This document shows, in pieces, positions 18,101 to 38,832 of a stretch of 64,000 bases of DNA. Source of the DNA: Branchiostoma floridae (lineage: Eukaryota; Chordata; Leptocardii; Amphioxiformes; Branchiostomatidae); assembly GCF_000003815.2 (NCBI RefSeq), contig NC_049981.1, forward strand, positions 20,579,015 to 20,643,014. The letters are read 5' to 3'. Below the pieces are notes generated by a model, which saw only the letters and a list, made by a program, of their open reading frames with translations, was not told the DNA's origin and did no database searches. Numbering within the stretch: position 1 is the first letter of the stretch; each line of letters opens with the position of its first letter. A program made the translations under genes and the position numbers.

Positions 18101-20121
18101 AAGCATAAGCTTAAGCTCGACTGAGGTGTGTTTCCATTGTCCGTTACTTGTCTGCTCCAGGCCTGGTGGACATGGTGATCGCATCCTCCCTCCTGGCGGC
18201 AGGTGTCGGCTCTATCGGCACGCCTTGGTCCCGCTCTCTGGCGCTCACCGGCTTCTGTAAGCTGCTCACCGGGTTTGGGCACGGAGCCACGGACGCAGGT
18301 ACGTCACACTGAATCCCTGTAATGTCAGGTTTATCACATCTAAGGATAATCGTCGACGTACGGTAAAACTTGAGTGAGATTTTTTTGTTCAATGCAAGGA
18401 TTTAGCTGTCCTCTTCTGAGTCGATGGGATGGAATATACATGGAATTATCATGTGCAAGGAGATAGCGGTGAACAATAGTTTTGAAGGCTTGAAGACTAC
18501 ATACAGGAGGGAAACAGTTTTCATCGAGAGATTTCCATAGTTTGCAGGACTTTAAACTTGAGACTGGTAATGAAACAGTATAGTGATGTGGGGTAGAGAC
18601 TAGTGTTACGCCAGTGAAAGGCTGTCATTGGAGGGAGAAGTAGTGTAACATCATCAGAGCAATGACCATGAAAGTACCGAAAAGAGACAGGGAGGTAACG
18701 GTGTCACCTGTGAGTGAGGGGGTCCAGCTTAGATGCCAATGTTGGTAACATTTTCATTTGAATAGATTTGACGAGCTGTCAACAAAAGTTGTGAGGTCCC
18801 TGTTAACCGTATGGAAAATTCGCAATATTACTCAAGCAGCTTGATAATTTGGTAAGATGGAAACTCATCTGAACTTTCGGAAGACTCCCAATTGGCTTAA
18901 TTCACCGTGCTTGTCAATTGGTATGCCCATATTGTCTTGAATGACATTTTGAACATTTTATATCCCTATTTATACGTTTTTTGTACTGTTTTTGCTCTTA
19001 CAGCCGGTACTGTGACGGTGATCCAGCTTTGGGGTGACAACTCGGCGCCAGCTCTCCACATCATCCACATGGGGTACCCGTTCATCGCGCTCTTTGTCCC
19101 GTTCATGGCACAGCCTTTCCTCTCACGCCGTCCAGAAGTCAACGGAACGGCCACCCCTCCCCCTCTCACCGTGGAGGAAGCCTGGAGGACGTCCAAAATC
19201 GAACAAGCCTACCTCATCCCCACCTTCGTGTCCGCTGCCGTCTGTGTCATCTTCTTGGCTTTCCACTTTTACTTCTCCCCGAAGTACCAACCGGATCTTC
19301 CTCGTCCGGATTTCTTGGCCTGCTTCAAATCGAAGAAGAAAACTGATCCGGATGCTTCCGATCCGGATCCGGAAGCACAGCCGTTTTGCAGACGCTTCGT
19401 CTCGTGTTGGAGTTCGAAGTTGTGTCGCTCCTTCCAGGGCGAGGGGCTGTTCTCCCCTGGCAGGTGCGTGAAGGGAGAACCTGTTCTCGGGTCTTTCTAC
19501 GTTGTCCTGTTGTTTCTTTTCTACCTGGTGTATCTGTCCGGGGAGGTGAGTCTGTTTGAGTACCTGTTCGCCTACAGTGTGGAGAGCGGGCTCTTCGATA
19601 AAGACGGCGCCTCTCTGGTGTACTCGTTCTTCTTTCTTTTCTTCCTCTTGGGGCGAGGATTTGGCGGGTTCGGGTCCCACTGGGTGCCGGCGGGCCTGAT
19701 TATCGGGGTCTCCATCTTCCTGCTGCAGGTCGTCGGGATCGAGTACTCGGTCTGGGGAGTGAACGACAGCACGGTGTTCTGGGTGCTGACGTGTGTGGCC
19801 GGGTTTTGCTGCGGCCCGGTGTTCCCCGCCTGCTCTGCCTGGGCGAACCACTACCTGGACCTCACCGGTGTCCTGGTGGTGGTCATGTTCGTCGGGGCGT
19901 CTTTCGGCAACATGATCGGTACCTACGCCACGGGGTACTTCTTCGAATATGCCGGGATAGATTCCATGTTTCACGGCCACATCGGCTACATGGCGATCAC
20001 CATCGTGGTGTTCTTCATGATGCAGTTTTCCATGTCTGTCCTGTTCAAGGACAGGATGCAGAAAGCGGGAGGAGAAGACGAGGAACCAGAACCAGAAGTT
20101 GAGGCAATCACTAAGGTCTAG
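15065..20121 (+). CDS. MFSD4B: MFSD4B/NaGLT1-like major facilitator transporter (5 exons, complete)
   Basis: Exons 15065-15157, 17117-17221, 17689-17842, 18161-18298 and 19004-20121 join in frame to 535 residues. The product is a 12-helix-type membrane transporter of the major facilitator superfamily. Family features visible: the first helix KTGCLVLAWIAM followed by VAPTLIDL, helix 2 with CHTIGYFLSNMAGG, the block GFGHGATDA across the exon 4/5 junction, then LWGDNSAPALHIIHMGYPF. These resemble sodium-dependent glucose transporter 1 and MFSD4. NaGLT1 was described as a Na+-coupled glucose/fructose carrier; substrate here is inferred only. A long charged, cysteine-containing cytoplasmic loop in exon 5 (about residues 255-325) precedes the second six helices. 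The C-terminus is acidic. A polyadenylation signal AATAAA lies at 20,417. Confidence 0.85.
15603..16180 (-). mobile_element. Internally deleted mariner element (578 bp) in transporter intron 1
   Basis: 39-bp terminal inverted repeats (CGAGGGGCGTGCAA at the ends, two mismatches) are flanked by TA on both sides, the Tc1/mariner target duplication. The minus strand encodes only the transposase N-terminus (15,997-15,698): RFLYLKGRTPKKTFDEINETYG... then RPGRP, the helix-turn-helix and linker of mariner transposases. The sequence after RPGRP loses similarity and the catalytic DDD region is absent, so the copy is non-autonomous. Confidence 0.92.
15698..15997 (-). pseudogene. Mariner transposase N-terminal fragment
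   Basis: The 99-residue open frame carries the DNA-binding half of a mariner transposase (family length about 345). Homology stops near residue 68 at an internal deletion. The original catalytic core is missing, so it cannot catalyse transposition. Confidence 0.85.
16413..16658 (-). pseudogene. C-terminal tail of a LINE reverse transcriptase (fragment)
   Basis: The minus-strand frame includes RRSISYSGTVPWNSLRPN followed by SLITFKNMLRR. This SFSYRG-xxxWNSLP...FKxxL signature is the usual C-terminus of CR1/L2/RTE-like LINE ORF2 proteins. No upstream polymerase domain was found, so this is a 5'-truncated copy. Confidence 0.6.
17117..17221 (+). CDS. MFSD4B: Transporter exon 2: start of helix 1
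   Basis: After acceptor CCACAG, 35 codons encode a basic stretch (LGLKKYAKDYR) and then the hydrophobic KTGCLVLAWIAM; donor GTGAGA, phase 0. Confidence 0.82.
17689..17842 (+). CDS. MFSD4B: Transporter exon 3: VAPTLIDL motif and helix 2
   Basis: The 154-nt exon (acceptor GAAAG, donor GTAACA, phase 1 exit) encodes MVAPTLIDLKDRLGV, then CHTIGYFLSNMAGGVVVD. The PTL-DL block after helix 1 is characteristic of the MFSD4/NaGLT1 branch. Confidence 0.88.
17998..18072 (-). repeat. tRNA-derived SINE-like segment
   Basis: On the minus strand a B-box GTTCGAATCCC follows a D-arm-like TTAGTGACCTTGCCTC by tRNA-like spacing, with ACCAAGAAGC between them. The same ACCAAGAAGC linker occurs in the segment at 52,698, suggesting one family. 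Confidence 0.5.
18161..18298 (+). CDS. MFSD4B: Transporter exon 4: helices 3-4
   Basis: The 138-nt exon begins at a strong CTGCTCCAG acceptor, encodes GLVDMVIASSLLAAGVGSIG and ends in GFGHGATDA with donor GTACGT. Confidence 0.9.
18299..19003 (+). other. Transporter intron 4
   Basis: No recognisable element or extra exon; the open frame that starts at 18,907 is intronic read-through into exon 5. Confidence 0.6.
19004..20121 (+). CDS. MFSD4B: Transporter exon 5: helices 4-12 and stop
   Basis: The acceptor TCTTACAG at 18,996-19,003 restores the frame from exon 4; the open frame upstream of it (from 18,907) is intron read-through. The exon holds about eight hydrophobic segments, a central hydrophilic loop, a phenylalanine-rich helix (SFFFLFFLLGRGFGGF) and stop TAG at 20,119. 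Confidence 0.92.
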
Positions 20122-21346: not shown

Positions 21347-21355
21347 TGACGCAAT
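21347..21355 (+). promoter_or_regulatory. C/EBP-ATF-like site (TGACGCAAT) upstream of MZB1
   Basis: TGACGCAAT differs by one base from the CHOP-type amino-acid/ER-stress response element TGATGCAAT. It lies five bases from the ERSE at 21,360. Function is inferred. Confidence 0.4.
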
Positions 21356-21359
21356 AGAA

Positions 21360-21378
21360 CGTGGGCTTCCGGGATTGG
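21360..21378 (-). promoter_or_regulatory. Perfect ER stress response element (ERSE), reverse orientation
   Basis: CGTGG, nine bases, ATTGG is the exact reverse complement of the ERSE consensus CCAAT-N9-CCACG, bound in animals by NF-Y together with ATF6 (and XBP1). The spacer GCTTCCGGG is GC-rich, as in mammalian ERSEs. It sits 147 bp upstream of the MZB1 start codon, a typical promoter distance. Confidence 0.75.
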
Positions 21379-21524
21379 TCCACTTGGCCAGCTGGTACCA
21401 AACGCCGTGATGAAAATTTAATTTCAAACGCATTGTTCCCGTCTAGAAGTATTGGCGGTAGATTTCACAGACAGCTAGACCCTCGACACTTAACGTTCTG
21501 CGAGCAGATTTCTGATTATTCGGG

Positions 21525-21734
21525 ATGGCAGCTACGGTTGACTGTAGTGCGCTGTCAGTGTTGCACGTGTTGTTTGTTTTGGTGTTGTTGTTTACAACCT
21601 GTGCACGCGCACAAAAAGAGCAAAAGCTCGGCAGTATCAAGTTTTCCGGGCCAGACGTGAACAGTGAGGAGTCCGAGTCTTTACACATGCCGGACTACCT
21701 GAAGTGTGACGCCTGTAGAATCATAGCTTACAAG
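21525..21734 (+). CDS. MZB1: MZB1 exon 1: signal peptide and CDAC motif
   Basis: The start at 21525 (GGGATGG) is the first ATG giving a hydrophobic leader. Seventy codons end at IIAYK; donor GTGAGG, phase 0. Confidence 0.88.
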
Positions 21735-24386
21735 GTGAGGACAGGTGTGGTGGACAGGTGTGTAGTCAAGAGGTGTGTTGTACCAAGTAGGTGTGGTATA
21801 CAGGTGTGTGGCCAAGTGTGTTGTACACTTGTGTTATACAATGCACTTGGTGGGTATATCAAATGTATTATACAGGTGTGTTGTACAGGTGTGCCAAACA
21901 GGTGTATCGTCATGCATGTTGTATAAGTGTGTTGTATGGGTGGGTTTTTCAGGTGGTGGTCAGGTGTGCTGTAGTTACAGGTGTGCTATGCAGGTTTGTG
22001 GTCAAGTGTGCATGTGTATTGTACTGGTGGGTGTATCAAGTGTGTTGGTTAGGTGTGTTGTACAGTGACCACGGTGCCAGATGTATTGAATGTACTGAAA
22101 AATGTCCTTGCTACAACCAGGATATGATGTTATCTGTACATGATAAAGGATGTGTCAGCTGTCACAACTTGTTTGGCTTATGATGTTCTTTCTTCAGTTC
22201 ACAGAAACTCTGGAGAAAGTTACCAAGAAGAAAACCAAAGCCCTGAGTGAGTCTGAGATCATCGACACATTCGAGGAGGTGTGCGAAGGTTCCTGGGACG
22301 AGTGAGTAGAGCTGTGTATAACTGTGGGACAGTTAATGTACTTGTATTACTAAATATTTAGGGCCAAAGGGCCGTGTGGATATGCTCACAGACATTAGAT
22401 GAAGAGGCCAAAAGTTTGATTCCTGGAATTCCTGTTTATAGACGTTGCTTCCCACCCCTTCTCCACCAGTTTTGAACAGACCTTTAACTAAATAAATTCG
22501 AATTTATGATGTTTTCCCCAGGTCATTTTGCATAAAATAACCTGGGTTTACACTGTCATTGTCTCTATAAACTTGTGAATTGCCTGCTGCAAATTATAAA
22601 AATTACTGAGAACTGGTAGAAGAAATCAGGCAAAACCAGTTATACAAGTCAAAGTCACTAACTCAAAAGGATTGTATGCAAATGCCACTGTTAATATGTA
22701 AATCATGTTAAGACAATTTCTTTGTTTCATGTTTAGACAACTTCAAGACAACAACAATGTGTTGTTTGGCTTATGATGTTCTTTCTTCAGTTCACAGAAA
22801 CTCTGGAGAAAGTTACCAAGAAGAAAACCAAAGCCCTGAGTGAGTCTGAGATCATCGACACATTCGAGGAGGTGTGCGAAGGTTCCTGGGACGAGTGAGT
22901 AGAGCTGTGTATAACTGTGGGACAGTTAATGTACTTGTATTACTAAATATTTAGGGCCAAAGGGCCGTGTGGATATGCTCACAGACATTAGATGAAGAGG
23001 CCAAAAGTTTGATTCCTGGAATTCCTGGTTTATAGACGTTGCTTCCTTGGGAAAAGCACTTTCCTTGCTCAACCCAGGTGTAGAAATGGGTACCTGACTT
23101 TGGTCAAGGAGGTAAAAGGTAGTGGGCTCAGCCTTCAAATGCTGTGCCATTACATTAGGAATAGTGTATAACAAACAACCCACTGCCCCTAAGGCCTCAA
23201 AAAGTCTAAGGGATTACCCTTACCTTTTATTGCTATTACTACAAATAGACAAACAATAGCTCAAAACAATTTTCTACCTTGGTCATGGTATTAAAAAATG
23301 GCTGTAGCTCATTACGAAGTCAATCTTCTTGGATGAAACTCAAGTGTTTTGTATTTCTTCCTCAGCTATGGTATCAAGGAGGTTGATGGTTTGAAGAGAC
23401 TGTCTGGTCCTGGTTTAGAGACTAAAGATGTACCTGGAGTCATGCAGGGAGGAGGAAAATGGCCTTTCAGGTAAGGAAACTCAAACTCAACCAGGGTCTT
23501 CCCAATTCCCTGATTCAAAGTTTCTTAGTCTCTATGCAGACCTTTTAGCTTTAGCCCACTCCCACTGATCACTGAGGATCTCTTTTCTGTAAGGCTTAGG
23601 CAGCCTATTTTGATTTCCCACAATTTGTGGGGAACAACATTTTGCTTTGTCTGAATTTAGCGTATGCCATATGGGGGAAGCTCATGCTTGCTTGCTTGCT
23701 TGCTTACTTGCTTATGTCGAGTCTATCCGGTCTTGAGTTGTGATGGCAGCCCATGCTTCCCTGTCAATCATGCAGCTCATGCAGTCACTATATCTTGCTA
23801 ACAAGGCTAAGAACTTCTTCCCTCACCTAATAGCAAACCAAAGTTCCATGTGATTTATCCCATAACTATATCTTCACGCTAATCTGTTTAATCTGTTTTT
23901 CATATCAGACATGCTAATCTCAGCTGTCAAGATGATGGAATGGCAATGAGATTCTGTAAATGACAGAATGCTGGATGCTTTAGAAAACTCTCAGGCTGAT
24001 CTCTAGATACCTCTGATACAAAATTAACAGCCACCCAATGCTGTAGAATACAGCAGCAATCAGTACACATGAGCAATTATAGACCATTACATAATCAGAA
24101 AAATGGTACATGTAATTAAAATGCCTGCTTTGAAAATTGCTGTGGAAGATCACGTACACTATGACACAGTGTCATGTTTTGCAATTAAAAGTGGAAATTC
24201 TCAAATCTTTTTAGGTTGAAGGAGATGTGCTTCAACTATGTTGGAAATGAGGGTGAGGAAGAGCTGTACGGCATCTTTAAGAGCAAGATGACTCTGGAGA
24301 AGTTCTTGTGTAAGGAGAAAAACGGACCCTGTCACCCCAAGAACAAGAAAGTCAAGAAAGTAGAGGAAGAAAAGGAAGAACTGTGA
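21525..24386 (+). CDS. MZB1: MZB1 (pERp1) orthologue, ER-resident folding cofactor (4 exons)
   Basis: Exons 21525-21734, 22198-22301 (or its copy 22791-22894), 23366-23470 and 24215-24386 join to 196 residues; human MZB1 has 189. Residues 1-29 form a signal peptide with an A-R-A cleavage site. Then come HMPDYLKCDACRIIAYK, DYGIKEVDGLKRLSGPGL and a lysine/glutamate tail ending KEEL, a KDEL-type ER-retention signal (human REEL). Cysteines at 61, 64, 99, 145, 172 and 179 match the six-cysteine saposin-like/canopy pattern. In vertebrates MZB1 works in the ER lumen with GRP94 and helps immunoglobulin (IgM) assembly in B lineage cells. An animal without antibodies must use it for other clients, which is inference. 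Neighbouring promoter elements suggest UPR control. Confidence 0.9.
21735..22075 (+). repeat. Degenerate minisatellite in MZB1 intron 1
   Basis: Many imperfect copies of a 14-20 bp unit built on CAGGTGTGTTGTA begin right after the exon 1 donor. The open frames across it are repeat artefacts. Confidence 0.85.
22169..22452 (+). repeat. Tandem duplication, copy A (contains MZB1 exon 2)
   Basis: About 284 bp starting TTGTTTGGCTTATG recur from 22,762 at an offset of 593 bp with essentially one single-base indel. The copy includes the acceptor, the 104-nt exon 2, the donor and about 150 bp of following intron. Confidence 0.95.
22198..22301 (+). CDS. MZB1: MZB1 exon 2, copy A
   Basis: The acceptor TTCTTCAG leads into FTETLEKVTKKKTKALSE, then EEVCEGSWD; donor GTGAGT, exit phase 2. 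It encodes residues 71-104 and conserved C99. Its length, 104 nt, is not a multiple of three. Confidence 0.85.
22762..23046 (+). repeat. Tandem duplication, copy B (contains MZB1 exon 2 copy)
   Basis: The second copy of the unit at 22,169. Just beyond its right end, copy B is followed by a SINE-like segment, whereas copy A is followed by unrelated intron. Confidence 0.95.
22791..22894 (+). CDS. MZB1: MZB1 exon 2, copy B (identical alternative)
   Basis: The 104 nt and both splice sites are the same as copy A, so either can supply residues 71-104. If both were included, the frame entering copy B would hit TGA after 16 codons. Use must therefore be mutually exclusive, or this is an assembly duplicate. 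Confidence 0.8.
23047..23225 (+). repeat. SINE-like dispersed repeat in MZB1 intron 2
   Basis: A segment with GGGAAAAGCACTTTCCTTG, then AAATGGGTACCTGAC and CACTGCCCCTAAGGCCTC resembles a dispersed SINE body I recall from marine invertebrate genomes. The identification is from memory only; the left edge abuts the exon 2 duplication. Confidence 0.4.
23366..23470 (+). CDS. MZB1: MZB1 exon 3: DYGIKEVDGLKRLSGPGL block
   Basis: The 105-nt exon completes an aspartate codon from exon 2 and encodes the most conserved MZB1 block; donor GTAAGG, exit phase 2. Confidence 0.92.
23680..23712. repeat. (GCTT)n microsatellite
   Basis: Seven or so CTTG units in MZB1 intron 3. Confidence 0.9.
24215..24386 (+). 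CDS. MZB1: MZB1 exon 4: last three cysteines and KEEL terminus
   Basis: The acceptor TTTTTAG restores frame; residues 140-196 include C145, C172 and C179, a lysine/glutamate-rich tail and KEEL before TGA. Confidence 0.92.
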
Positions 24387-27092: not shown

Positions 27093-30000
27093 CTAGGAGA
27101 GTACGTCGAAACGGTGTGTACTCTCAATGTACTGGGAGAAGGCCATGTACATCTGTTTGTTGATTCCTTCTGAAAGGTCTTCTCTCATTCCAGCTAGCGT
27201 GGTGATGTCCGTGTCTCTGCTGTCTTCTGCTGTGTTGTATGTCTCATATATATTCTCCACTTCTAGCAGCATATGTTGTCTTTCCTTTTCATAGCGAGGG
27301 CAGTGGTACAGGAAGTGGTTGGTGGTCTCCACAGCACCGCAGTTAGTGCAGCTAGGTGAGATTTCAGGGTTCATCCAGTTTTGATAGGAGTTGAGTCTGG
27401 TGTGGCCACTCACTAGCTGGTTGATGATGACTTGTGTGCTTCTTCTTCCAAGTGTTTGTCCCTTCTTCTTCATGTTGGTGGCTATCTTCTGCATGTGTTC
27501 ACTTCTTGTGTTCAGCTTGGTCCTTCTGTTCCATCTCTCGTGTGCTTGTGCTTCAATGTGTTTCATGGCTTGCTGTTTTGTCCAAGATGTGTAGTTCTGG
27601 CAGTTTCTTGCTTCCTCTGCTGCCAGCTTAGCTTCTTTGTCTGCAATTTCATTTCCAGGAATTCCCATGTGTCCCGGGCACCAGGTGATCTGTATGGTGT
27701 AGCCTTTAGATTTGAGTGTGCTGAGTTTGCTTCTGAGTGTGTTTATCAGGCTGTTGTATGCTTCCACTTGTTGTACCCCTGTGACTGTCTCTATTGCAGC
27801 TTTGCAGTCGCAGAGGAGGAGAATCTTGTTCGATGTGGTCGGTCTTCTGTTGATGGTGTCTATGGCTAGGTGTAGTCCCTCGAGTTCCCCTTCGTAGTTA
27901 TTTGATTTGTTGGCCACCGGTTTGCGTACAGCGAAAGGCTCCGTGGTTCCCCACTTTTCGTACACAACTGCAGCACAACCGGTGGGCCCAGGGTTTCCAA
28001 GGGCCGAGCCGTCAGTGAAGATGACTGTGGTGGGTATGTTATTGCCTGTGATATCTTGAAGTATGGTCAGGATTTCTTCTCGTGCCCTGTCTTTTCCCCC
28101 CGTGGTGATTGTTGTAGCTGTAAAGGACCCAGTGATGCTGCCCATGGTGAAGGGAGGAAGTCTGGAGTCGTAGTATGGCTCCTTGTCAATCATGCATTCT
28201 TCCATCTCGCCCTTCATTTCGTTGAGTCTGGTCTGTAGCAGATGTAGCGGAGTTCCGATCTGGATGTCTGACTTGTGTGAGTTCATGTTTGTGATGGTAT
28301 CAAAGATGGGGTTTCCAGTGTGCTTGGACTTCATTCTGAGGTAGCTCTGGGCTTGTCTACAAGTGAGATGGATGTCAATAGGTGGGATGGCGGCTATCGA
28401 TTCCAGGGCCTCGGTGCTTGTTCTCTCGAGGCATCCAGTTGCAGTGAGCAGTGCCTGTCTCTGTATAGGAGAGTAAGCCTTCTCCAGTCTGTCTTTGGCA
28501 GTGATGGTGCATTCGGCAGCGTAGTCTAGGATGGGTCTGACGAGAGTTGTGTACAGCAGGATGTGGGCTTGTTGAGAGGGATTCTTCTTAGCTTGTGTAA
28601 CCTTGCTTACAGCTTTCAGGGCTCTGAAAGCCTTCGCCTTTGTCGTCGTGATGTGTTTGTCATAGGTGAGTTGTTGGTCTAGTGTGACTCCTACAAGCTT
28701 GAAGTTGTCAACCACTTCTATGCACTTGTTGTCAACTGTCAAGTTCTGTATTTCCATGTCGTCTGCATCTGCTTGTGGAGGGGGAAATATCATGGCTTGA
28801 GTTTTGCCCTGTTGGATCTTCATGTTCCAGAGTGGGCACCAGTTGAGGATGACTTTGGAGATGCCAGCCTCTACCTCTTCTTTCACTGATTGGATATCTT
28901 CCCCAGACGACCAGCCTGCTCCGTCATCTGCGTACTGGAAGTTATCAAGGTTGGTGTCCGTGTATGCGTCAGCTGTGTATATGTTGCAGAGTGTTGTGGA
29001 AAGTACCGCGCCTTGGGGGATGCCGACTTTGTTCTGTTGTGGGGGTGTTGTTATCGAGTTGATCCTGTAGCTGGCTTCTCTGTCTTTGAGGAAGGAGCTT
29101 AGATAACACAGCATCCTTCCTTTGATGCCTCTGGAGATGAGCTTGTACAGCAGGCCCTCCTGCCAGACCCGATCAAAGCAAGCTTCGTAGTCGGCAAAGA
29201 CAGCTATTGTTGTTCTGTTTTGCCTCCAGCCCTCTGTGATATCCTGAGTGAGTCTGAGTACGCCATGTGAAGCAGTCCTGTGTCTTCTGTAGGCTTCTGG
29301 GGTGTGGGAGAAGTGATTGTTGACTTCAGCCCACCAAGTCAGTCGGTTATTGATTGCTCTTTCCATGATTTTTCCTATTACACTGGATAGGGTGATGGGA
29401 CGGTAGGACTTGATCAGGTTGTAGTTCTCTTTGCCGGGCTTGCGTATAAGGACTTTGGTGTCTTGCTTCATTTGTGTAGGTAGTTCGCCGTGTCTCCATA
29501 TGCATTGTAGCAAGAAATGTAGTGCTTCTGTGAGTGCCGCCCCTCCTTTCTTAATCATGACAGGGAGGATGCCTTCGATGGGGCTTGGAGCCGAGTTACA
29601 ATTCATCTTCCCAATTGCTGCTTGCACCTCTTCCAGTTCTAGGTCATAGTTCAGGGGGTCTTCTTGATCGTCATCTTCTTTGACTGCTTCTGTCTGGTGT
29701 TTGATGGCTGCTTCCACTGCATGTGAGACGTTGTGTTTCCAGTGTGACAGGTCAGCGTTCATTTCTACCTCAGACGGGGCGAAGGTGTCAGTAGCGACCT
29801 GTGCAATCTCTTGGTCAGATGTGGCAACATCACCATTGGGTAGTTTCAGTGGCTGTACGACGGATTTTGCGTTATTGTTCAGGTGTGTTTTGATGGTTTT
29901 CCAGAAAGATTGAGGTTTTCTTGGGTCCATGCTCTTTAGTTGTGCCTCCCAGTGTTTGCTTTGTGCGTCTTCATCCATCTGTTCAAGGGTTTCTTTTTCT

Positions 30001-31106
30001 TTCAGGTACTTGTTGAGGTTGTGCATATCCCGTCTTCTGCGGAATTTTCTCAAGGCAGTTTTTGTGACCTTCATTTGTTCCTCAAGTGCTGGTGTCCAAT
30101 GCCCTTTACTATGTTTGGTTATGGTCTTCTTGTTGATGATTCCTTCTGTGCATTTGTTGAGAGTGATCTTAAAACTGTCGTACAAGTCAGATACATTGAT
30201 GTCTGCAGGTACTGTCTTCTTGTCATTGTCTTCAAGCCAAATCTGGAATTGCTCGTTTGTGGTTTCCTCCCATTTCTCCCAATCCACATTTCTGAGGTCG
30301 TATCGTTCAACCTTTTCAACTGGGGTCTTAGTTCCGACTTCCATTGTGATCAGGTGATGGTCTGTTTTCAGTTGGACTTCAGGTTGCACCCTCCATCTTT
30401 CGACTAGTTTCATTGCTTGTGAGTTAGTGATGGTGAGATCTATGACGCTGTTCTCTCTTGTTGGTCTGAAGTCGTTGATGGGATGGAGGTTGTGTGTTAG
30501 CAGGAAGTTGTTGAGTTGGTGCCCAAGTTGATTGTCTTTTTCATCCCCCCATGCTGGGTGACGGGCATTGAGGTCGCCACATAGGATTAATGGTCTCTTG
30601 GTGGATAGGAGGGATTTTACTGCATGTGTTAGTTCTTCCATTCCTTCTTTGTTATCGGGTGGGACATAAGCTGAGATGAGTGTGAAGTTTGCTGTGTCCG
30701 TGTAGATGTTCACGGCTGCGATGTCTGCATGTGTGGTGTTGTCCAAGTTTATCTCCATCATTTTGACATGTTCTTTGGTAGCAATGGCTACCCCTCCTCC
30801 TCTTTTTGTGGGTCTGCTTTTGAAGATCCAGTTCCAGGTTTTCAGGCATTGGGGTCTGTCTGTTTTGTTCCATACCTCTGAGAGACAGAGTATGTCTATG
30901 TTCTGCTTTTTGCACATGTGTTCAACAAGTGAAGATGATGTGTTGATAGACCGAATGTTGACTTGGGCGATTTTCATGTTGTCGGTTGTAGAAGTCTTTT
31001 CTCGTGAGTTGATAGGTAGAGTTGTTGATGATATTGCCTCAAATGTGTAGTCGTGAGTAGATAGAATCAGGCATGCAAGCGTTGCTAGGATAATGTACTT
31101 CTTCAT
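27093..31106 (-). CDS. LINE ORF2: endonuclease, reverse transcriptase, RNase H
   Basis: The frame is open from 31,268, but I prefer the ATG at 31,106, seven bases after the ORF1 stop, giving about 1,337 residues. In order: a hydrophobic leader-like N-terminus (MKKYIILATLACLILS); an AP-like endonuclease (AQVNIRSIN, LSEVW, CGDLNARH, KTDHHL) over about residues 42-250; the reverse transcriptase with SYRPITLSS, FADYEACFD, GIPQGAVLS and catalytic YADD near residue 722; RNase H with FTDGSALGNPG, YEGELEGLHLA and CPGHMGIPGNEIAD; and a C-terminal CTNCG...HFLYHC zinc motif. No stop or frameshift interrupts it, so the copy may be young. It copies its RNA into DNA at a nicked target. Confidence 0.93.
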   Translation of the reverse strand: MKKYIILATLACLILSTHDYTFEAISSTTLPINSREKTSTTDNMKIAQVNIRSINTSSSLVEHMCKKQNIDILCLSEVWNKTDRPQCLKTWNWIFKSRPTKRGGGVAIATKEHVKMMEINLDNTTHADIAAVNIYTDTANFTLISAYVPPDNKEGMEELTHAVKSLLSTKRPLILCGDLNARHPAWGDEKDNQLGHQLNNFLLTHNLHPINDFRPTRENSVIDLTITNSQAMKLVERWRVQPEVQLKTDHHLITMEVGTKTPVEKVERYDLRNVDWEKWEETTNEQFQIWLEDNDKKTVPADINVSDLYDSFKITLNKCTEGIINKKTITKHSKGHWTPALEEQMKVTKTALRKFRRRRDMHNLNKYLKEKETLEQMDEDAQSKHWEAQLKSMDPRKPQSFWKTIKTHLNNNAKSVVQPLKLPNGDVATSDQEIAQVATDTFAPSEVEMNADLSHWKHNVSHAVEAAIKHQTEAVKEDDDQEDPLNYDLELEEVQAAIGKMNCNSAPSPIEGILPVMIKKGGAALTEALHFLLQCIWRHGELPTQMKQDTKVLIRKPGKENYNLIKSYRPITLSSVIGKIMERAINNRLTWWAEVNNHFSHTPEAYRRHRTASHGVLRLTQDITEGWRQNRTTIAVFADYEACFDRVWQEGLLYKLISRGIKGRMLCYLSSFLKDREASYRINSITTPPQQNKVGIPQGAVLSTTLCNIYTADAYTDTNLDNFQYADDGAGWSSGEDIQSVKEEVEAGISKVILNWCPLWNMKIQQGKTQAMIFPPPQADADDMEIQNLTVDNKCIEVVDNFKLVGVTLDQQLTYDKHITTTKAKAFRALKAVSKVTQAKKNPSQQAHILLYTTLVRPILDYAAECTITAKDRLEKAYSPIQRQALLTATGCLERTSTEALESIAAIPPIDIHLTCRQAQSYLRMKSKHTGNPIFDTITNMNSHKSDIQIGTPLHLLQTRLNEMKGEMEECMIDKEPYYDSRLPPFTMGSITGSFTATTITTGGKDRAREEILTILQDITGNNIPTTVIFTDGSALGNPGPTGCAAVVYEKWGTTEPFAVRKPVANKSNNYEGELEGLHLAIDTINRRPTTSNKILLLCDCKAAIETVTGVQQVEAYNSLINTLRSKLSTLKSKGYTIQITWCPGHMGIPGNEIADKEAKLAAEEARNCQNYTSWTKQQAMKHIEAQAHERWNRRTKLNTRSEHMQKIATNMKKKGQTLGRRSTQVIINQLVSGHTRLNSYQNWMNPEISPSCTNCGAVETTNHFLYHCPRYEKERQHMLLEVENIYETYNTAEDSRDTDITTLAGMREDLSEGINKQMYMAFSQYIESTHRFDVLS

Positions 31107-31113
31107 GCCTTGG

Positions 31114-32493
31114 TTACCGATGATGCCTGAGGTGCCGTTCTTCCAGCCTCTGCTTGATTGCCTGGAATTCGCGACACCTTGGGTCGTTGGCAGAGTGTGT
31201 GCCACTGCAGTTGACACACTTCGGTTTGCAAGGATCGGGGTGTGCTTTGTGCCCTCCGCACCTGACACAGCTGGGTTCCTCTTTGCACAGTCTGGCTATG
31301 TGTCCAAGCTTGTGGCAATTGTAGCACCTGATCGGGGTGGTCCTCTTGCTTCGGTAGGTTTCAACTGTTATAGTATCCCCTCTTATTGTCAGGGTTTGTA
31401 GGAAGAGATTGTTAAGTTGCCCAAGTGTAGCATCAACTCTTACAACCCTTAGTGGTTTGCCAGTGTCCTGATAGTGGTATCTGTGTGCCTTGACTTGGAT
31501 GCTAGTTTGTTTGAGTATGGTTTGTTCAATTTCTTCTTCTGTTGCTTCAGGAGTAATGTTCTTGAGGATTGCCCTTTTTCCGTATGATTGGTCTGCTTTA
31601 TGGCTTGATAGTTGTTCGCTATTGGCGTTAAAGGCACCGTCTTGCCAGGGTTGCAGTAGGTCCTCTGTGACTTTAGAGTTTTTGCAGTGAACAGCTATAC
31701 CCCCTCTAGGGAGTAGGTATGCGAGGTCGATGTTGTGGGCACAGTGTGGTTTGTTTCTGGCAATCTCTGCAATGATCTTCCCGCTGTTTTTGTACTGCTC
31801 AGGTTGGGGTATCCCATCAATCAGCACAATGTGATTAGAGGGATCTTGGATTTGGCTATCTTTAGCTGTGCCTTGAGTATTCACTTCTTTGTGTGGAATT
31901 TCGATAGGGTGGTATGGCTTGTCATTCAGCTCTTGTGTGATACAGTGTGCACAGTGGAATGGTTCTTTGTTTTTTGTAAGGAAGTCACATACCTTGTAGG
32001 ATAACTTGGCACATGTGTTATGCCACCATTTGTCACAAGAGTCGCAACAGATCCAACGCCCTCCTTCTGGGTGGTCACATCCACATACACAGTCTTCCTC
32101 GTCAGCCTCAACTTCTTCTACTGGTGCTAGTTTTTCTACTTTCTTAGTTGATGTTGTTGATTTGCGTGGCACTGTGTTGCTTCTTTGAGTTGGTTTGCGT
32201 TTTTCAGCAGTCTGATCTTGGCTATCTGATTGCTTCTTACTCCTATCTCTGAGTGTCCTGTGGTCTCCTGGCTTTCCCTGAATGTTGCGTTTTTCTTGGT
32301 CACTGTTTGCAAGGTCAAGATCTATAGGGTCTATGCTTTGCTTTCCTTCGTTTTCTTGTTTCTTTTTCTGAGCTCTTGTATACATGCCAGACCAAGGAAA
32401 ACCAAGATGGTGTCTGCTTGGCCTGGGTTGGCTTGGGTTTGTTGTTATGGTAATTTCAAAATGGCGCCCTCCCCATTTTGACTCAGCTTCCAC
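31114..32493 (-). CDS. LINE ORF1: PHD finger and zinc-knuckle nucleic-acid-binding protein
   Basis: The 459-residue product has a basic, low-complexity N-terminus (about 40-120), a PHD-type zinc finger at 135-184 (CVCGC...WICCDSCDKWWHNTC...FHCAHC), an RRM-like region near 300-375 and CCHC-type knuckles from about 390 (CYNCHKLGHIARLC, then CVRCGG and CVNCSGTH). ORF1 proteins bind the element RNA to form the transposition particle; a PHD finger, which in other proteins reads histone tails, is unusual among ORF1 proteins but known in some families. It ends HHR-TAA immediately before the ORF2 ATG. Confidence 0.9.
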   Translation of the reverse strand: MEAESKWGGRHFEITITTNPSQPRPSRHHLGFPWSGMYTRAQKKKQENEGKQSIDPIDLDLANSDQEKRNIQGKPGDHRTLRDRSKKQSDSQDQTAEKRKPTQRSNTVPRKSTTSTKKVEKLAPVEEVEADEEDCVCGCDHPEGGRWICCDSCDKWWHNTCAKLSYKVCDFLTKNKEPFHCAHCITQELNDKPYHPIEIPHKEVNTQGTAKDSQIQDPSNHIVLIDGIPQPEQYKNSGKIIAEIARNKPHCAHNIDLAYLLPRGGIAVHCKNSKVTEDLLQPWQDGAFNANSEQLSSHKADQSYGKRAILKNITPEATEEEIEQTILKQTSIQVKAHRYHYQDTGKPLRVVRVDATLGQLNNLFLQTLTIRGDTITVETYRSKRTTPIRCYNCHKLGHIARLCKEEPSCVRCGGHKAHPDPCKPKCVNCSGTHSANDPRCREFQAIKQRLEERHLRHHR

Positions 32494-33415: not shown

Positions 33416-34384
33416 TTATTGTTGGGAAGTCAGGATGGCTCGTCCTAGATCCGAGTCGGCTTCTGGACGATAATAAAAGGTTTGAAAGGTCGCAGCTCTA
33501 GACCAGTCAGCCAACTTGAGCAGTTCTGGGAGCGATAAGCCTTTCCTGAACGCTGCGGAGGCAGCGGCCCCCCTGTGCGAGTGGGGCTTGAATATCGAGA
33601 CATCTATTCCTGCTAGGGACATAATCTCTTTCAGCCACCTCGCAATGGTCGATGAGGTGACTGATTTTTTAGTCCGAAAGGACATGAAGAGTTTCCTCTC
33701 CAGGCGTAAGTCCTTTGTTCTCTGGATATATGCCCGGATATAGGAGACTACAGAGAGGCTTTCTTGACCTCCATAATGTTGGAGGACTATCTCCCTGTAA
33801 GGCCGGCCTGGCCTATCTGTTTTTGTCAGATTAGCAGGTACGAACGTTACTTTTGTTGTTGACATGGCCATGAGGTCAAGTGACAGAGAAGACAGGGTAG
33901 CTGACCTGTCTGCTGAAGTTAATGCCATAAGTGTGGCAGTCTTGAGAGTCAACATCTTTAGGGACAGATTGTCAGGGGGATGTAGTGTCTTCAAATACTG
34001 TAAGACTTTGTCTACGTCCCAAGTTACCAGGTATCTTGGGCGGGGAGGTCTCAGGTTAAAGATACCCATCATAAAGCTGGATACCATCCAGTGTTGTCCA
34101 ATACGTACGCCCTCGATCGGAAGTCTAGTGGACGAAATGGCCGATCGGTATACATTAAGGGACCTGTATGCCAAGCCTTCTGAGTATAAGGAATGGAGAA
34201 AGTCCACTACTCTAGGGATGGGAGCTGTTGTAGGGTCTAGCAACCTGGCCCTACACCAGGAAGCATAGCGATTCCAGGCGCTCTGATATTGCTTGTTTGT
34301 TGACTTCCTGGTAGCCGCTGTGAGTACCGAAGTTGCCTCTTTGGAGACCCCAAGAGCGGCTAACGCCTGCCCGATACAGCCCAT
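33416..34384 (-). CDS. DIRS tyrosine recombinase
   Basis: The frame stays open far upstream (to 37,204), but recognisable recombinase starts near the methionine at 34,384, just before the RT/RNase H stop, giving about 322 residues. An N-terminal SAM-like core-binding part (NKQYQSAWNRYASWC) is followed by the catalytic domain: the box A arginine in SADRSATL, HxxR in HSHRGAAAS and the nucleophile tyrosine in FQTFYYRPEA. It would join the circular DNA copy to the target without a staggered cut. All catalytic positions I can recognise are intact. The product may arise by frameshift, reinitiation or splicing; the sequence does not say which. Confidence 0.9.
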   Translation of the reverse strand: MGCIGQALAALGVSKEATSVLTAATRKSTNKQYQSAWNRYASWCRARLLDPTTAPIPRVVDFLHSLYSEGLAYRSLNVYRSAISSTRLPIEGVRIGQHWMVSSFMMGIFNLRPPRPRYLVTWDVDKVLQYLKTLHPPDNLSLKMLTLKTATLMALTSADRSATLSSLSLDLMAMSTTKVTFVPANLTKTDRPGRPYREIVLQHYGGQESLSVVSYIRAYIQRTKDLRLERKLFMSFRTKKSVTSSTIARWLKEIMSLAGIDVSIFKPHSHRGAAASAAFRKGLSLPELLKLADWSRAATFQTFYYRPEADSDLGRAILTSQQ

Positions 34385-37116
34385 GCGGTCAGTTTTAGGG
34401 TCTTCCACAGCGGGTGTGTTTCTGTCCGACTGCCCGGAAGGCTGAGGGAGTACTTGTCTACCGGCAGAGGAAATGGTTCGTCTGTGGCTAGCTCTTTGAG
34501 AAGCGGGAACCATGGTTGGCTGGGCCAAAATGGTGCGATTACCATCGCCTGAGCCTTGTCTTGCCGCACCTTGGCTAGGCAGCGGGACAGGAGGCATACT
34601 GGGGGAAATATGTACACTTTCATTCCGTTCCAGGGCCATGTGAACGCATCTACTTTCCAGGCTAGAGGATCGGGTTTCCAGGAGCAAAACTTCGGCAGTT
34701 TGGTGTTGAGTCTGGACGCAAATAGGTCCACCTCTGGGTGGAAGTTGAGTTGACGGCTGGCTAGACGGAAGAGGTCGGGATGTAGAGACCACTCTGTCGT
34801 GTCCTGGAAGACCCTGGAGGCTGTGTCTGCCTCCTCGTTTTGAACTCCTGGAATGTGCTCTGCTGAAATGGTGAGACCCCTTGCTAGGGACCATTTCCAC
34901 AGATTCAGTGCAGTCTTGCACAGTGTCAGGGACTTGCATCCTCCCTGATGATTGATATAGGCTACCGCTGAGGTGTTGTCTATCCTCAGATGTACATGGA
35001 TGTTCTTCCTGGTGGCAGCGAAACATTGGAGAGCGAAGAATGCCGCCTTCAGCTCCAGTTCGTTTATGTGGAGCTTGCTCTCTGACAGGGACCAGCGGCC
35101 CCCTGTTTGATTGTTCTCGCATGTGGCTCCCCACCCTTGGAGGGAGGCGTCCGAGGTAATGGTCAGTATCGGACCTTGAGGGTTCACGAAGACTTTGCCG
35201 TTCCACTGGCTCAGACATTGAGACCAGACAAGAAGCTCTTGCCTGGCCTCCTGTGGAAGGGTTACCTTGTCCTCCCAAGACAGGCCTTGTGTCCGGGAGT
35301 CGTTTAGCAAGGTTTGCAAAGCCCTGTAGTACAGCGGAGCTGGTAAAACCGCTAGTACTGACGCGGTCATCTTGCCTAGCACCCTGGCAAGTTGTCTTAG
35401 GGAGATCTGCTGCGATCCTTGCAAGGAGGAGCAGGTCTGAACCAGATTCATCACTTTCTCCTCTGGAAGGGAGAAGGTAAGGAGCAGGGAGTCGATCACC
35501 ATGCCCAGGAAGGTTATCTTCTGGGTGGGTATCAACTGTGATTTCTCCACATTCAGGAGAAATCCTAGAGAAGTCAGGAGATCGATGACAAACTTCAGAT
35601 TGTCCCTGCATTCTTGGGCTGACGTGCCCATGATGAGGATGTCGTCCAGGTAAATGATTATGCGAATCCCCCTGGATCTGATCACTGCTATGATNNNNNN
35701 NNNNNNNNNNNNNNNNNNNNNNNNNNNNNNNNNNNNNNNNNNNNNNNNNNNNNNNNNNNNNNNNNNNNNNNNNNNNNNNNNNNNNNNNNNNNNNNNNNNN
35801 NNNNNNNNNNNNNNNNNNNNNNNNNNNNNNNNNNNNNNNNNNNNNNNNNNNNNNNNNNNNNNNNNNNNNNNNNNNNNNNNNNNNNNNNNNNNNNNNNNNN
35901 NNNNNNNNNNNNNNNNNNNNNNNNNNNNNNNNNNNNNNNNNNNNNNNNNNNNNNNNNNNNNNNNNNNNNNNNNNNNNNNNNNNNNNNNNNNNNNNNNNNN
36001 NNNNNNNNNNNNNNNNNNNNNNNNNNNNNNNNNNNNNNNNNNNNNNNNNNNNNNNNNNNNNNNNNNNNNNNNNNNNNNNNNNNNNNNNNNNNNNNNNNNN
36101 NNNNNNNNNNNNNNNNNNNNNNNNNNNNNNNNNNNNNNNNNNNNNNNNNNNNNNNNNNNNNNNNNNNNNNNNNNNNNNNNNNNNNNNNNNNNNNNNNNNN
36201 NNNNNNNNNNNNNNNNNNNNNNNNNNNNNNNNNNNNNNNNNNNNNNNNNNNNNTTGCAGGAGGAGCAGGTCTGAACCAGATTCATCACTTTCTCCTCTGT
36301 AAGGGAGAAGGTAAGGAGCAGGGAGTCGATCACCATGCCCATGAAGGTTATCTTCTGGGTGGGTATCAACTGTGATTTCTCCCAATTCAGGAGAAATCCT
36401 AGAGAAGTCAGGAGATCGATGACAAACTTCAGATTGTCCCTGCATTCTTGGGCTGACGTGCCCAGGATGAGGATGTCGTCCAGGTAAATGATTATGCGAA
36501 TCCCCTGGGATCTGATCACTGCTATGATGGGTTTGGTGATCTTTGTGAAGGCTCTGGGTATGCAATTCAGCCCGAAAGGGCAGACTTGGAACTCCCACAG
36601 GCGAGATTGGAACTGAAACCTGAGGAGTTTGCGAAAGGATGGGTGTATGGGAATGTGGAAGTAAGCATCCTGGATATCCAGGGATGCCATCCAGTCTCCG
36701 GGACGTATGAGAGATTTGAGGTCTTGTAGTCCCTCCATCTTGAAATGTGGGGCCAACACATACTGATTGAGAGGTTTCAGATTTACGACCGGGCGCCAGC
36801 CGCCCGACTTCTTTGGAACCAGGAAGAGGCTGGCTACAAACTCTCCCGGTGTAGGCAGAACTTCCGTTATCGCCCCCTTCTGCAGAAGTGACTGAATCTC
36901 CTTTGAAATTAAGTCTGTCTCCTCTGTGGAACGATTCTGTTCTCGTGGTGCTACGCGTTGTATTGGTCGTCCTGTGAGCTGCGGCTTCAGACCCTGGATC
37001 GCCTGAAGGACCCAGGCGTCCGACGTAATGGCCTGCCACTGTGGCAGGAAGTGTTGTAGCCGGCCAGCTACTTGGGTAAGAGGCTGCAGCGCAGGGGGCG
37101 ACCGGGGTGATACCAC
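34360..37116 (-). CDS. DIRS reverse transcriptase-RNase H (contains the N gap)
   Basis: Reverse transcriptase motifs in order: FLVPKKSGGWRPVVNLKPLN, DWMASLDIQDAYFHIPI, FQVCPFGLNCIPRAF and IIIYLDDILI. RNase H follows with ITSDASLQGWGA, HINELELKAAFFAL, IDNTSAVAYIN and IPGVQNEEADTASR. The YLDD region appears twice because sequence on either side of the 559-bp gap (35,695-36,253) is duplicated; a genuine protein should have one. The enzyme makes the DNA copy of the element RNA. Start taken at 37,116, but in-frame sequence continues a little upstream, so the true start could differ. Confidence 0.88.
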   Translation of the reverse strand: MVSPRSPPALQPLTQVAGRLQHFLPQWQAITSDAWVLQAIQGLKPQLTGRPIQRVAPREQNRSTEETDLISKEIQSLLQKGAITEVLPTPGEFVASLFLVPKKSGGWRPVVNLKPLNQYVLAPHFKMEGLQDLKSLIRPGDWMASLDIQDAYFHIPIHPSFRKLLRFQFQSRLWEFQVCPFGLNCIPRAFTKITKPIIAVIRSQGIRIIIYLDDILILGTSAQECRDNLKFVIDLLTSLGFLLNWEKSQLIPTQKITFMGMVIDSLLLTFSLTEEKVMNLVQTCSSCXXXXXXXXXXXXXXXXXXXXXXXXXXXXXXXXXXXXXXXXXXXXXXXXXXXXXXXXXXXXXXXXXXXXXXXXXXXXXXXXXXXXXXXXXXXXXXXXXXXXXXXXXXXXXXXXXXXXXXXXXXXXXXXXXXXXXXXXXXXXXXXXXXXXXXXXXXXXXXXXXXXXXXXXXXXXXXXXXXXXXXXXXXXIIAVIRSRGIRIIIYLDDILIMGTSAQECRDNLKFVIDLLTSLGFLLNVEKSQLIPTQKITFLGMVIDSLLLTFSLPEEKVMNLVQTCSSLQGSQQISLRQLARVLGKMTASVLAVLPAPLYYRALQTLLNDSRTQGLSWEDKVTLPQEARQELLVWSQCLSQWNGKVFVNPQGPILTITSDASLQGWGATCENNQTGGRWSLSESKLHINELELKAAFFALQCFAATRKNIHVHLRIDNTSAVAYINHQGGCKSLTLCKTALNLWKWSLARGLTISAEHIPGVQNEEADTASRVFQDTTEWSLHPDLFRLASRQLNFHPEVDLFASRLNTKLPKFCSWKPDPLAWKVDAFTWPWNGMKVYIFPPVCLLSRCLAKVRQDKAQAMVIAPFWPSQPWFPLLKELATDEPFPLPVDKYSLSLPGSRTETHPLWKTLKLTAWAVSGRR
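35420..35694 (-). repeat. Gap-flanking duplicate, left copy
   Basis: This 275-bp stretch repeats at 36,254-36,528 with roughly seven differences, at an offset of 834 bp (a multiple of three). Confidence 0.92.
35695..36253. other. Assembly gap (559 N)
   Basis: Run of unresolved bases in the DIRS reverse transcriptase; open frames drawn across it are meaningless. Confidence 0.99.
36254..36528 (-). repeat. Gap-flanking duplicate, right copy
   Basis: Partner of 35,420-35,694. The sequence to its right continues normally into the upstream reverse transcriptase. Confidence 0.92.
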
Positions 37117-37139
37117 CAGGGAGGGGTGAGGTGTAACCT

Positions 37140-38645
37140 CTAGTTTTTTGTCTGGCGCTTCCCCTTGTGGAAGTTCTTTGAGCCCTGGGGTTTGTGTGAG
37201 TCACGAAAGGAGCGGTTAGATTGACCGTGGTGACGTCCTCCCCTGGAGCGGTGCCTCCCCCCAGGAAGGTTGGTACCAGAAGACTGTTGAGTCTTCGGTG
37301 ATGCCGGTTTGTTGTAGAGAGGGGCCGGCTTGTTGGCAGCGAAACCTGAGCTGTTTAGCCTGGCCACTGTCTTTTCCGTTTTCTCACAGTCCTCAATGTT
37401 CTTGATGATATCCTCTCCCAGGAGCCACTTACATGTGGCATTGGTAAGGCGTCCATCGACATTCTGGGACTTCCCAGGCACCTTTTGCTTGTCGTGGACC
37501 AAGCATTTGAACCTTGGGTCCACCCACTCGTGGACCAGGCGGCGCCTCACTCCTGTGATTTCATTACAGACACTGCCCAGGAGTTGGCCCGTAACCTTCA
37601 GGTTGGTCACAAGTGTGTTAGCTAGTTCCGATAACTCCTTGTTATCGGACACAGTAAGGGGTACTATCGTGTCAAGAGACACTAGTAAGGGCTGTACTGC
37701 GCGCAGTACGTGCTCCTGGATTTTCTTGATAGAGTCATCGTGTTTGACCGCTTGGACCGAGTGTTTGATCCCCTCCCACTTCTCCCTCAAGAGAGGTTGT
37801 AGGTTTGGGGCCGAGACAGCTTCCAACTGGCTCTGGTCCAGTAAGTAAGGTTTGACGGTGGTGTCAAAAGTCTGCTGAGAAAACAACAGACACCTTTCAT
37901 TTTTGAACCAGTTGAGTAGCTTGTCTGAAACAAGTACCCCTGTTTCCTTAGGTTCAATGGAAGTGAGGAGGTCGTAAGGGTCTGGAGGGGGGGACGTGGT
38001 CACCTCCTCCTCCTTCTGGTCAGGGATGAGTTCCTGTTCAACTTCAAGGTTCCGCTCCCGCTCATGAAGCTCTGATTCGGAGGGAGCAAGGACACTAATG
38101 TCGTCCCGAACCTGAGATGCCGACGGGCTGGTCGGGCGGTGACTCCTAGAACGGGACCGAGAGCGGGACGAGTAGCGACTCACGTCATCCCTTTGGCGGT
38201 GCAGGGGGGACCTGGACCGCTCATGGCGCCTGTGCCGACGATAGCGAGCATCGTCCTCGTCTTCCGAGCCGCTGCCGCTGGAAAAGCTTGAGAAGCGGCT
38301 CCTGGACCGACTGTTGCGGTCCGAAAAGGCCCGCATCGAACCAGACACTGCCTCAGCCACCATTTGTTGGAGGCCCTGCACAAACGCTGGATCTTGAAAG
38401 ATCTGCGATCCGACTGACAGAACTTCGGTTCCCGCCAAATCGTGGGGGGAGCCGCCGTGTGCATGGTATGTGTGGTCCCCCGGCACCTCAGAGGTGGCGG
38501 GCGGGCCATGTGCGCTTGGCGCGATCGACTGATTTTGACCGTTTCCCGGCGCTGGAGCGGCAGGAAGGGTCCCCGGCGAATCCTGCTGGGTACCATCGGC
38601 TCGCTGGGAGGCGATGTAGCCGGGGGGAACTTGATTAGAAGACAT
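37140..38645 (-). CDS. DIRS gag-like ORF1 protein
   Basis: The 501-residue product starts at MSSNQVPPGYIAS. It has a proline/glycine-rich N-terminus, an arginine-serine-rich tract at about 110-175, an acidic segment, a helical middle (about 220-400) and a basic, glycine-rich C-terminus (GGRHRSRGGRHHG...KGKRQTKN). That layout fits a gag-like RNA-binding capsid-type protein of DIRS elements, judged from position and composition; no zinc knuckle is visible. It ends 24 bp before the RT methionine at 37,116. Confidence 0.75.
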   Translation of the reverse strand: MSSNQVPPGYIASQRADGTQQDSPGTLPAAPAPGNGQNQSIAPSAHGPPATSEVPGDHTYHAHGGSPHDLAGTEVLSVGSQIFQDPAFVQGLQQMVAEAVSGSMRAFSDRNSRSRSRFSSFSSGSGSEDEDDARYRRHRRHERSRSPLHRQRDDVSRYSSRSRSRSRSHRPTSPSASQVRDDISVLAPSESELHERERNLEVEQELIPDQKEEEVTTSPPPDPYDLLTSIEPKETGVLVSDKLLNWFKNERCLLFSQQTFDTTVKPYLLDQSQLEAVSAPNLQPLLREKWEGIKHSVQAVKHDDSIKKIQEHVLRAVQPLLVSLDTIVPLTVSDNKELSELANTLVTNLKVTGQLLGSVCNEITGVRRRLVHEWVDPRFKCLVHDKQKVPGKSQNVDGRLTNATCKWLLGEDIIKNIEDCEKTEKTVARLNSSGFAANKPAPLYNKPASPKTQQSSGTNLPGGRHRSRGGRHHGQSNRSFRDSHKPQGSKNFHKGKRQTKN

Positions 38646-38690
38646 ATTGAGCTGAAAAACGCGCTGCCGAGTGGGTAATGAAAAATATCT

Positions 38691-38832
38691 TACCTCGCTC
38701 AGTCGAGCTAAGTTAGAAGAGGAGGATCCGGATGTGACGTGTGGTCACCCGGATGTTTTTCTTTGCTGTAAATAGCTGCCATCTAGCGAGCGCGTTAGGA
38801 ACGCCATATGTTTCGGAGATTGCGACGGATAA
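38691..38832. repeat. DIRS upstream inverted terminal repeat
   Basis: Reverse-complement partner of 32,886-33,042; the two share about 100 bp of near identity but differ at their outer ends, as is usual in DIRS. The outer end GCGACGGATAA matches the complement at 33,148-33,158. Confidence 0.92.

Follow-up and report, generated by a model that had tools for sequence, protein, structure and literature searches.

A candidate ER-stress element in front of an MZB1 gene of the lancelet Branchiostoma floridae

Known ER-stress elements and the lancelet site

Vertebrate MZB1 is a helper in antibody folding and, to our knowledge, has been described almost exclusively as a factor in antibody assembly. 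Its mammalian form, also named pERp1 or CNPY5, is orthologous to the lancelet gene considered here. One section of PMC3893805 ('pERp1/MZB1: An Assembly Switch?') describes MZB1 as an interactor of GRP94. In excerpts of two further papers, MZB1 appears among the genes that human plasma cells induce along with XBP1 (PMC13307996), and spleen MZB1 of lupus-prone mice is reported to peak 48 h after tunicamycin (PMC5791339), a whole-tissue rise that may reflect cell numbers. Among the literature matches listed, none reports an ER-stress element (ERSE) on MZB1, vertebrate genes included, or an amphioxus MZB1, and an earlier description is possible. The closest described elements are the mammalian ERSE-I sites of Hspa5, Hsp90b1 and Calr, as presented in passages of PMC8301375; the exact CCAAT-N9-CCACG and the GC-rich spacer recur at the lancelet site, which would also lie close to the start of a gene with an ER product. 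The same passages name GRP94 and calreticulin as ERSE genes in mammals and state that ATF6 needs NF-Y on CCAAT in order to bind the CCACG half, and that XBP1s can bind alone.

The analysed stretch of lancelet DNA (64,000 nucleotides, hereafter the window) contains a single exact ERSE, reading CGTGGGCTTCCGGGATTGG on the plus strand and therefore CCAATCCCGGAAGCCCACG on the minus strand, and only one other place, at 35011, matches with a single mismatch (Table 1). The spacer is GC-rich (7/9), and the exact, reverse-oriented element of the preliminary description is confirmed. It is followed, after 146 bases, by the ATG of a gene whose product has a signal-peptide-like start and a KEEL end. The 200 bases 5' of this ATG are CpG-rich (observed/expected 1.17, a value reached by 5.7% of 630 windows) and could be part of a promoter. 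Unlike the mammalian ERSE-I genes, lancelet MZB1 has one site only, with a CCAATCCC flank and without the GGC that mammalian spacers carry. AACGTG is also present at the site. The ATF-like TGACGCAAT, previously placed five bases from the ERSE, is four bases away; it fits the C/EBP-ATF (CARE) consensus, but since this consensus is found at 20 places in the window, TGACGCAAT on its own carries little meaning.

Table 1. Positions of the exons and promoter motifs of the lancelet MZB1 gene in the window
Feature	Position	Strand	Basis or remark
TGACGCAAT, ATF/CARE-like site	21347..21355	+	four bases from ERSE; fits CARE consensus
Exact ERSE, CCAAT-N9-CCACG (CCAATCCCGGAAGCCCACG)	21360..21378	-	pattern search, zero mismatches
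CCGGAAG, ETS-like core inside ERSE spacer	21366..21372	-	motif reading; spacer 3/9 against C14 gene
Second block common to C14 MZB1 promoter, ATGAAAATTTAATTTCAAAC (16/20), on ERSE diagonal	21410..21429	+	promoter alignment
MZB1 exon 1, signal peptide judged by eye	21525..21734	+	gene model; donor GTGAGG
MZB1 exon 2, copy A, 104 nt	22198..22301	+	gene model
MZB1 exon 2, copy B, identical to copy A	22791..22894	+	joint use with copy A breaks frame
MZB1 exon 3	23366..23470	+	gene model
MZB1 exon 4 with stop; protein end KEEL, a KDEL-like ER-retention end	24215..24386	+	gene model

Could such a match arise by chance, with no regulatory role at all? From local composition, 0.00033 exact ERSEs are expected in the 200-base stretch that precedes the ATG and 0.07 over the whole window, and from the genomic density (366 exact places in 513,431,437 bases) the figure is 0.00014 per 200 bases. 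The value of roughly 0.0004 given at first is thus about right, with the limit that it ignores how many motifs a reader could have chosen. Over an assumed 27,000 genes, the computed rates would still give roughly 4 to 9 genes with such a site, and this freedom of choice also speaks for chance. Against it stands the matching element at the homologous position of a second MZB1 gene, a placement that random sequence of the window rarely produces (14 of 39,037 cases, see below), and we consider pure chance very unlikely.

The MZB1 gene and its surroundings

The spliced product of the four exons has 196 residues and carries a DUF3456 domain (PF11938, 32.3 bits against a cut-off of 21.1). When it was searched against the PDB, the sole match at E values up to 10 was MZB1 (7aah, E 4.5e-30), with 40% identity over 152 residues. 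The same genome contains separate CNPY2-like (C16) and CNPY3/4-like (C15) genes, named by our own reading. The CNPY2-like protein gave no MZB1 match in the PDB search, and BLAST aligned it with the window protein in short fragments only. Given the PDB match of the window protein and its lack in the CNPY2-like one, the window gene is, by similarity, an MZB1 orthologue that lies closer to vertebrate MZB1 than to the canopy proteins, and not a generic canopy gene; the identification as an invertebrate MZB1 made in the preliminary description is borne out.

Two stretches of 269 bases (22169-22437 and 22762-23030, 593 bases apart) are 100% identical, and each holds the whole of exon 2. The splice sites of both exon copies are intact, and using both breaks the frame. 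The repeat is either a recent tandem duplication or an assembly artefact.

The neighbouring frames are of other kinds. An MFS transporter frame (PF07690, E 1.8e-10) at 18901-20121 lies upstream on the same strand, with about 1.4 kb between its end and the MZB1 ATG, so the two do not share a promoter head to head. On the 3' side of MZB1, on the opposite strand, a 1400-codon open frame of LINE type at 27093-31295 encodes endonuclease, reverse transcriptase and RNase H. Farther along, at 33416-38744, reverse transcriptase and tyrosine-recombinase-like ORFs form what we read as a DIRS-type element, broken by a run of N. An Rfam search of the window gave no match.

A second MZB1 gene and its promoter

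When the window promoter and first exon were used as a DNA query, a relative of exon 1 came up on C14, where a second, diverged MZB1 gene occupies C14:12651056-12653404 on the minus strand, with four exons and an NDEL end. A protein search of the genome found matches at these two loci only, C3 (the window gene, 5 places) and C14 (3 places). The two products share 109 of 183 residues; the lancelet copies are 57 to 62% alike, and each is 39 to 40% identical to the PDB MZB1. With an NG86 dS of 2.2-2.5 and agreement at just 18 of 41 fourfold sites, neutral sites are saturated and have lost memory of the common origin. By these sequence distances the C3 and C14 genes are old duplicates, and we rejected a recent duplication as the source of any likeness between their promoters, given the saturated synonymous sites.

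The C14 promoter carries CCAAT-N9-ACACG at -149 to -131, in the same orientation as the window ERSE at -165 to -147. On a common offset, which was picked after both promoters had been inspected, the half-sites agree at 9 of 10 bases (binomial P of at least 9/10, 0.0003) and the spacer at 3 of 9, while the remainder of -200 to -60 agrees at 40 of 121 positions, which is background. The four bases that follow CCAAT (TCCA), noticed afterwards, agree at 4/4. An ERSE with at most one mismatch, so placed and oriented, occurred in 14 of 39,037 random 300-mers of the window; these served as the null, the alternative pool of loci being biased because most of them hold an ERSE. Half-sites that are kept around a free spacer are the pattern expected of an ERSE.

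The likeness is not confined to the element. When 16,200 five-gap-five frames were compared at 81 offsets, 6 of them reached at least 9/10, all on the ERSE offset (starts at -180, -165, -164, -163, -115 and -114); besides the ERSE, the frames at -180 and at -115/-114 also reach 9 or 10 of 10. The two promoters are thus collinear and have about three spots in common, the ERSE among them. The second shared block of Table 1 is perhaps the core promoter.

Neither TGACGCAAT, nor the ETS-like core, nor ACGTG is common to the C14 promoter at the matching place, and no CARE was found in the 1000 bases upstream of the C14 gene. CARE and ETS were therefore rejected as conserved promoter parts; TGACGCAAT fits the CARE consensus and is not conserved, and for the adjacent ATF-like site of the preliminary description the second gene gives no support. 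The same result bears on the view that this is a general stress promoter and not an ERSE, with ACGTG serving another bZIP or bHLH-PAS factor (CREB, HIF) and TGACGCAAT serving ATF4-C/EBP. AACGTG and TGACGCAAT are indeed there, but both motifs are short and frequent, and the corresponding place on C14 has neither ACGTG nor the CARE consensus; we hold this to be the least credible of the explanations considered.

The changed half of the C14 site (ACACG for CCACG) invites a stricter reading, namely that both genes have an NF-Y site in common, with CGTG nearby. In its full form, this would be a constitutive NF-Y promoter, perhaps with ETS, in which CCACG at nine bases is coincidental and the two copies share an NF-Y site and a core promoter. 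It would account for the fact that CCAAT and the next four bases are fully common to both genes and CCACG is not, for the further shared promoter spots, and for the ETS-like core in the spacer. It fits less well with CGTG being kept too, at exactly nine bases, when the spacer with its ETS core was not kept (3/9). Moreover, at any fixed distance from CCAAT an exact CCACG is expected about once in 1000 (four to the fifth power), and MZB1 is an ER chaperone gene, the class predicted for an ERSE. A plain NF-Y promoter is therefore unlikely in our judgement, although it deserves more weight than chance.

ERSE use in the genome and a probable role of the MZB1 site

In the 513 Mb genome, CCAATCAG-N6-CCACG, with its nine-base gap, occurs at 33 places, compared with 6 for a gap one base shorter and 2 for one base longer; the reversed-pattern controls gave 7, 4 and 2. 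At the level of sequence, these counts show that this invertebrate chordate genome uses the mammalian ERSE code down to its nine-base gap. GRP94 (C5) has two exact ERSEs, 120 and 204 bases before its ATG, with an endoplasmin match (E 8e-4) and, further downstream along that strand, HSP90 exons. Calreticulin has one, 155 bases before the ATG (downstream exon match, E 1.6e-7), a SDF2/SDF2L1-like MIR gene has one 13 bases before its ATG (second exon matching MIR, E 1e-7), and VKOR has one at 17 bases (E 1.5e-9). A further exact ERSE lies 558 bases before the ATG of a probable CRELD gene, identified by our reading of the protein; the PDB search with its exon gave no match, and Pfam gave none for the short exons of calreticulin, the CRELD-like gene, GRP94 and the first exon of the SDF2-like gene. 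The GRP94, calreticulin, SDF2-like and VKOR sites have the same ten fixed bases and gap as the window site and lie 13 to 204 bases upstream of the ATG, and the SDF2-like site also has CCCACGTTC in common with it. In contrast to the window site, all of them carry CCAATCAG, and GRP94 has two.

These ER genes account for 6 of the 64 ERSE places that were read, in 63 loci. The 64 places comprise 8 and 29 from pattern listings, 19 (in 18 loci) picked by flank and 8 picked by GC-rich spacer, so that 26 of the 63 loci were our own choice; CCAATSR fits 49 places, including the 22 with CCAATCAG, and 6 places are CCAATCC. We recognised ER genes by eye, from the three most hydrophobic ATG ORFs per place or from longer ORFs, and some may therefore have been missed. 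The 33 CCAATCAG places divide into 22 among the 64, one in locus L077 and 10 unread. Locus L077 (C16), which is outside the 64, has a CCAATCAG and a CCAATCC ERSE 131 bases apart and no recognisable gene, and no recognisable ER gene was seen at the eight places with a GC-rich spacer and no CAG flank.

Several observations count against a working element at MZB1. All six ER-gene ERSEs carry CCAATCAG (6 of 22 such places, 0 of the 42 others; Fisher 0.001, in a sample that leans to good flanks), and the window site, with CCAATCCC, lacks this NF-Y-type flank, which is no part of the published ERSE consensus. The CCAATCC class shows no enrichment (23 places against 26 for the reversed control; with a ten-base gap, 15 against 25), which also favours the plain NF-Y promoter. 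The exact CCAAT-N9-CCACG pattern as a whole, at 366 places, is less frequent than its reversed control, at 495, the control being imperfect since the reversed pattern has no CpG. Another is the ACACG of the C14 copy, and the shared promoter spots besides the ERSE, the single copy and the spacer without GGC count in the same direction. Given these counterpoints, we regard 21360-21378 as probably, but not securely, a functional ERSE of a lancelet-type MZB1 gene, and the plain NF-Y promoter keeps the standing given above.

Other members of the two gene families also weigh against a working site. Within the 9.9 kb searched of each, neither the CNPY2-like nor the CNPY3/4-like gene has an exact ERSE, and an ERSE common to the whole canopy family was rejected for this reason; the first intron of the CNPY3/4-like gene, by our reading, has two one-mismatch forms (CCACA). 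A second GRP94/HSP90-like gene at C2:34447134-34453466 has exon matches parallel to those of the C5 gene and, unlike that gene with its two, no exact ERSE before it among the matches listed.

Some exact ERSE-like sequences belong to repeats. Within 3 Mb of C8 (351238-3341530), 19 copies of CCAATGRGCGAGCGCCACG form a local repeat that contains one. CCAATACTTGAATACCACG is found at at least 12 exact ERSE places on contigs C1 to C5 and is probably a dispersed repeat with the motif.

If the window site acts as in mammals, NF-Y would occupy its CCAAT. As unfolded proteins accumulate, cleaved ATF6, which needs NF-Y, and spliced XBP1 would bind CCACG, and MZB1 transcription would go up jointly with that of its partner chaperone GRP94, which has two ERSEs in the same genome. 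Factor binding and ER-stress inducibility of lancelet MZB1 are in this way predicted from the mammalian case. The C14 gene is a natural test of which half of the ERSE matters, since its ACACG predicts weaker or lost induction of that copy.

The earlier proposal that MZB1 was already a target of the unfolded protein response before antibodies existed thus stands in part. It gains from the MZB1 identity, from the ERSE code at known ER-stress genes of this genome and from the one-mismatch ERSE of the C14 promoter. An ERSE that is partly kept in the second copy suggests that lancelet MZB1 responded to protein-folding stress in the absence of antibodies. With two MZB1 copies in one lineage, we infer that the ERSE is older than the C3/C14 duplication within the lancelet line; inheritance by vertebrates is not implied by this. 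One possible history, put forward tentatively, is that the invertebrate chordate line, ahead of antibodies, already had MZB1 and GRP94 as a pair induced by ER stress, and that vertebrate plasma cells took over this wiring on adopting XBP1. Lancelet MZB1 would then have doubled, one copy keeping the stress input and the other losing the bZIP half. An ER-stress element on the MZB1 orthologue of an animal that has no antibodies points to an older, general role of MZB1 in protein folding, together with GRP94.
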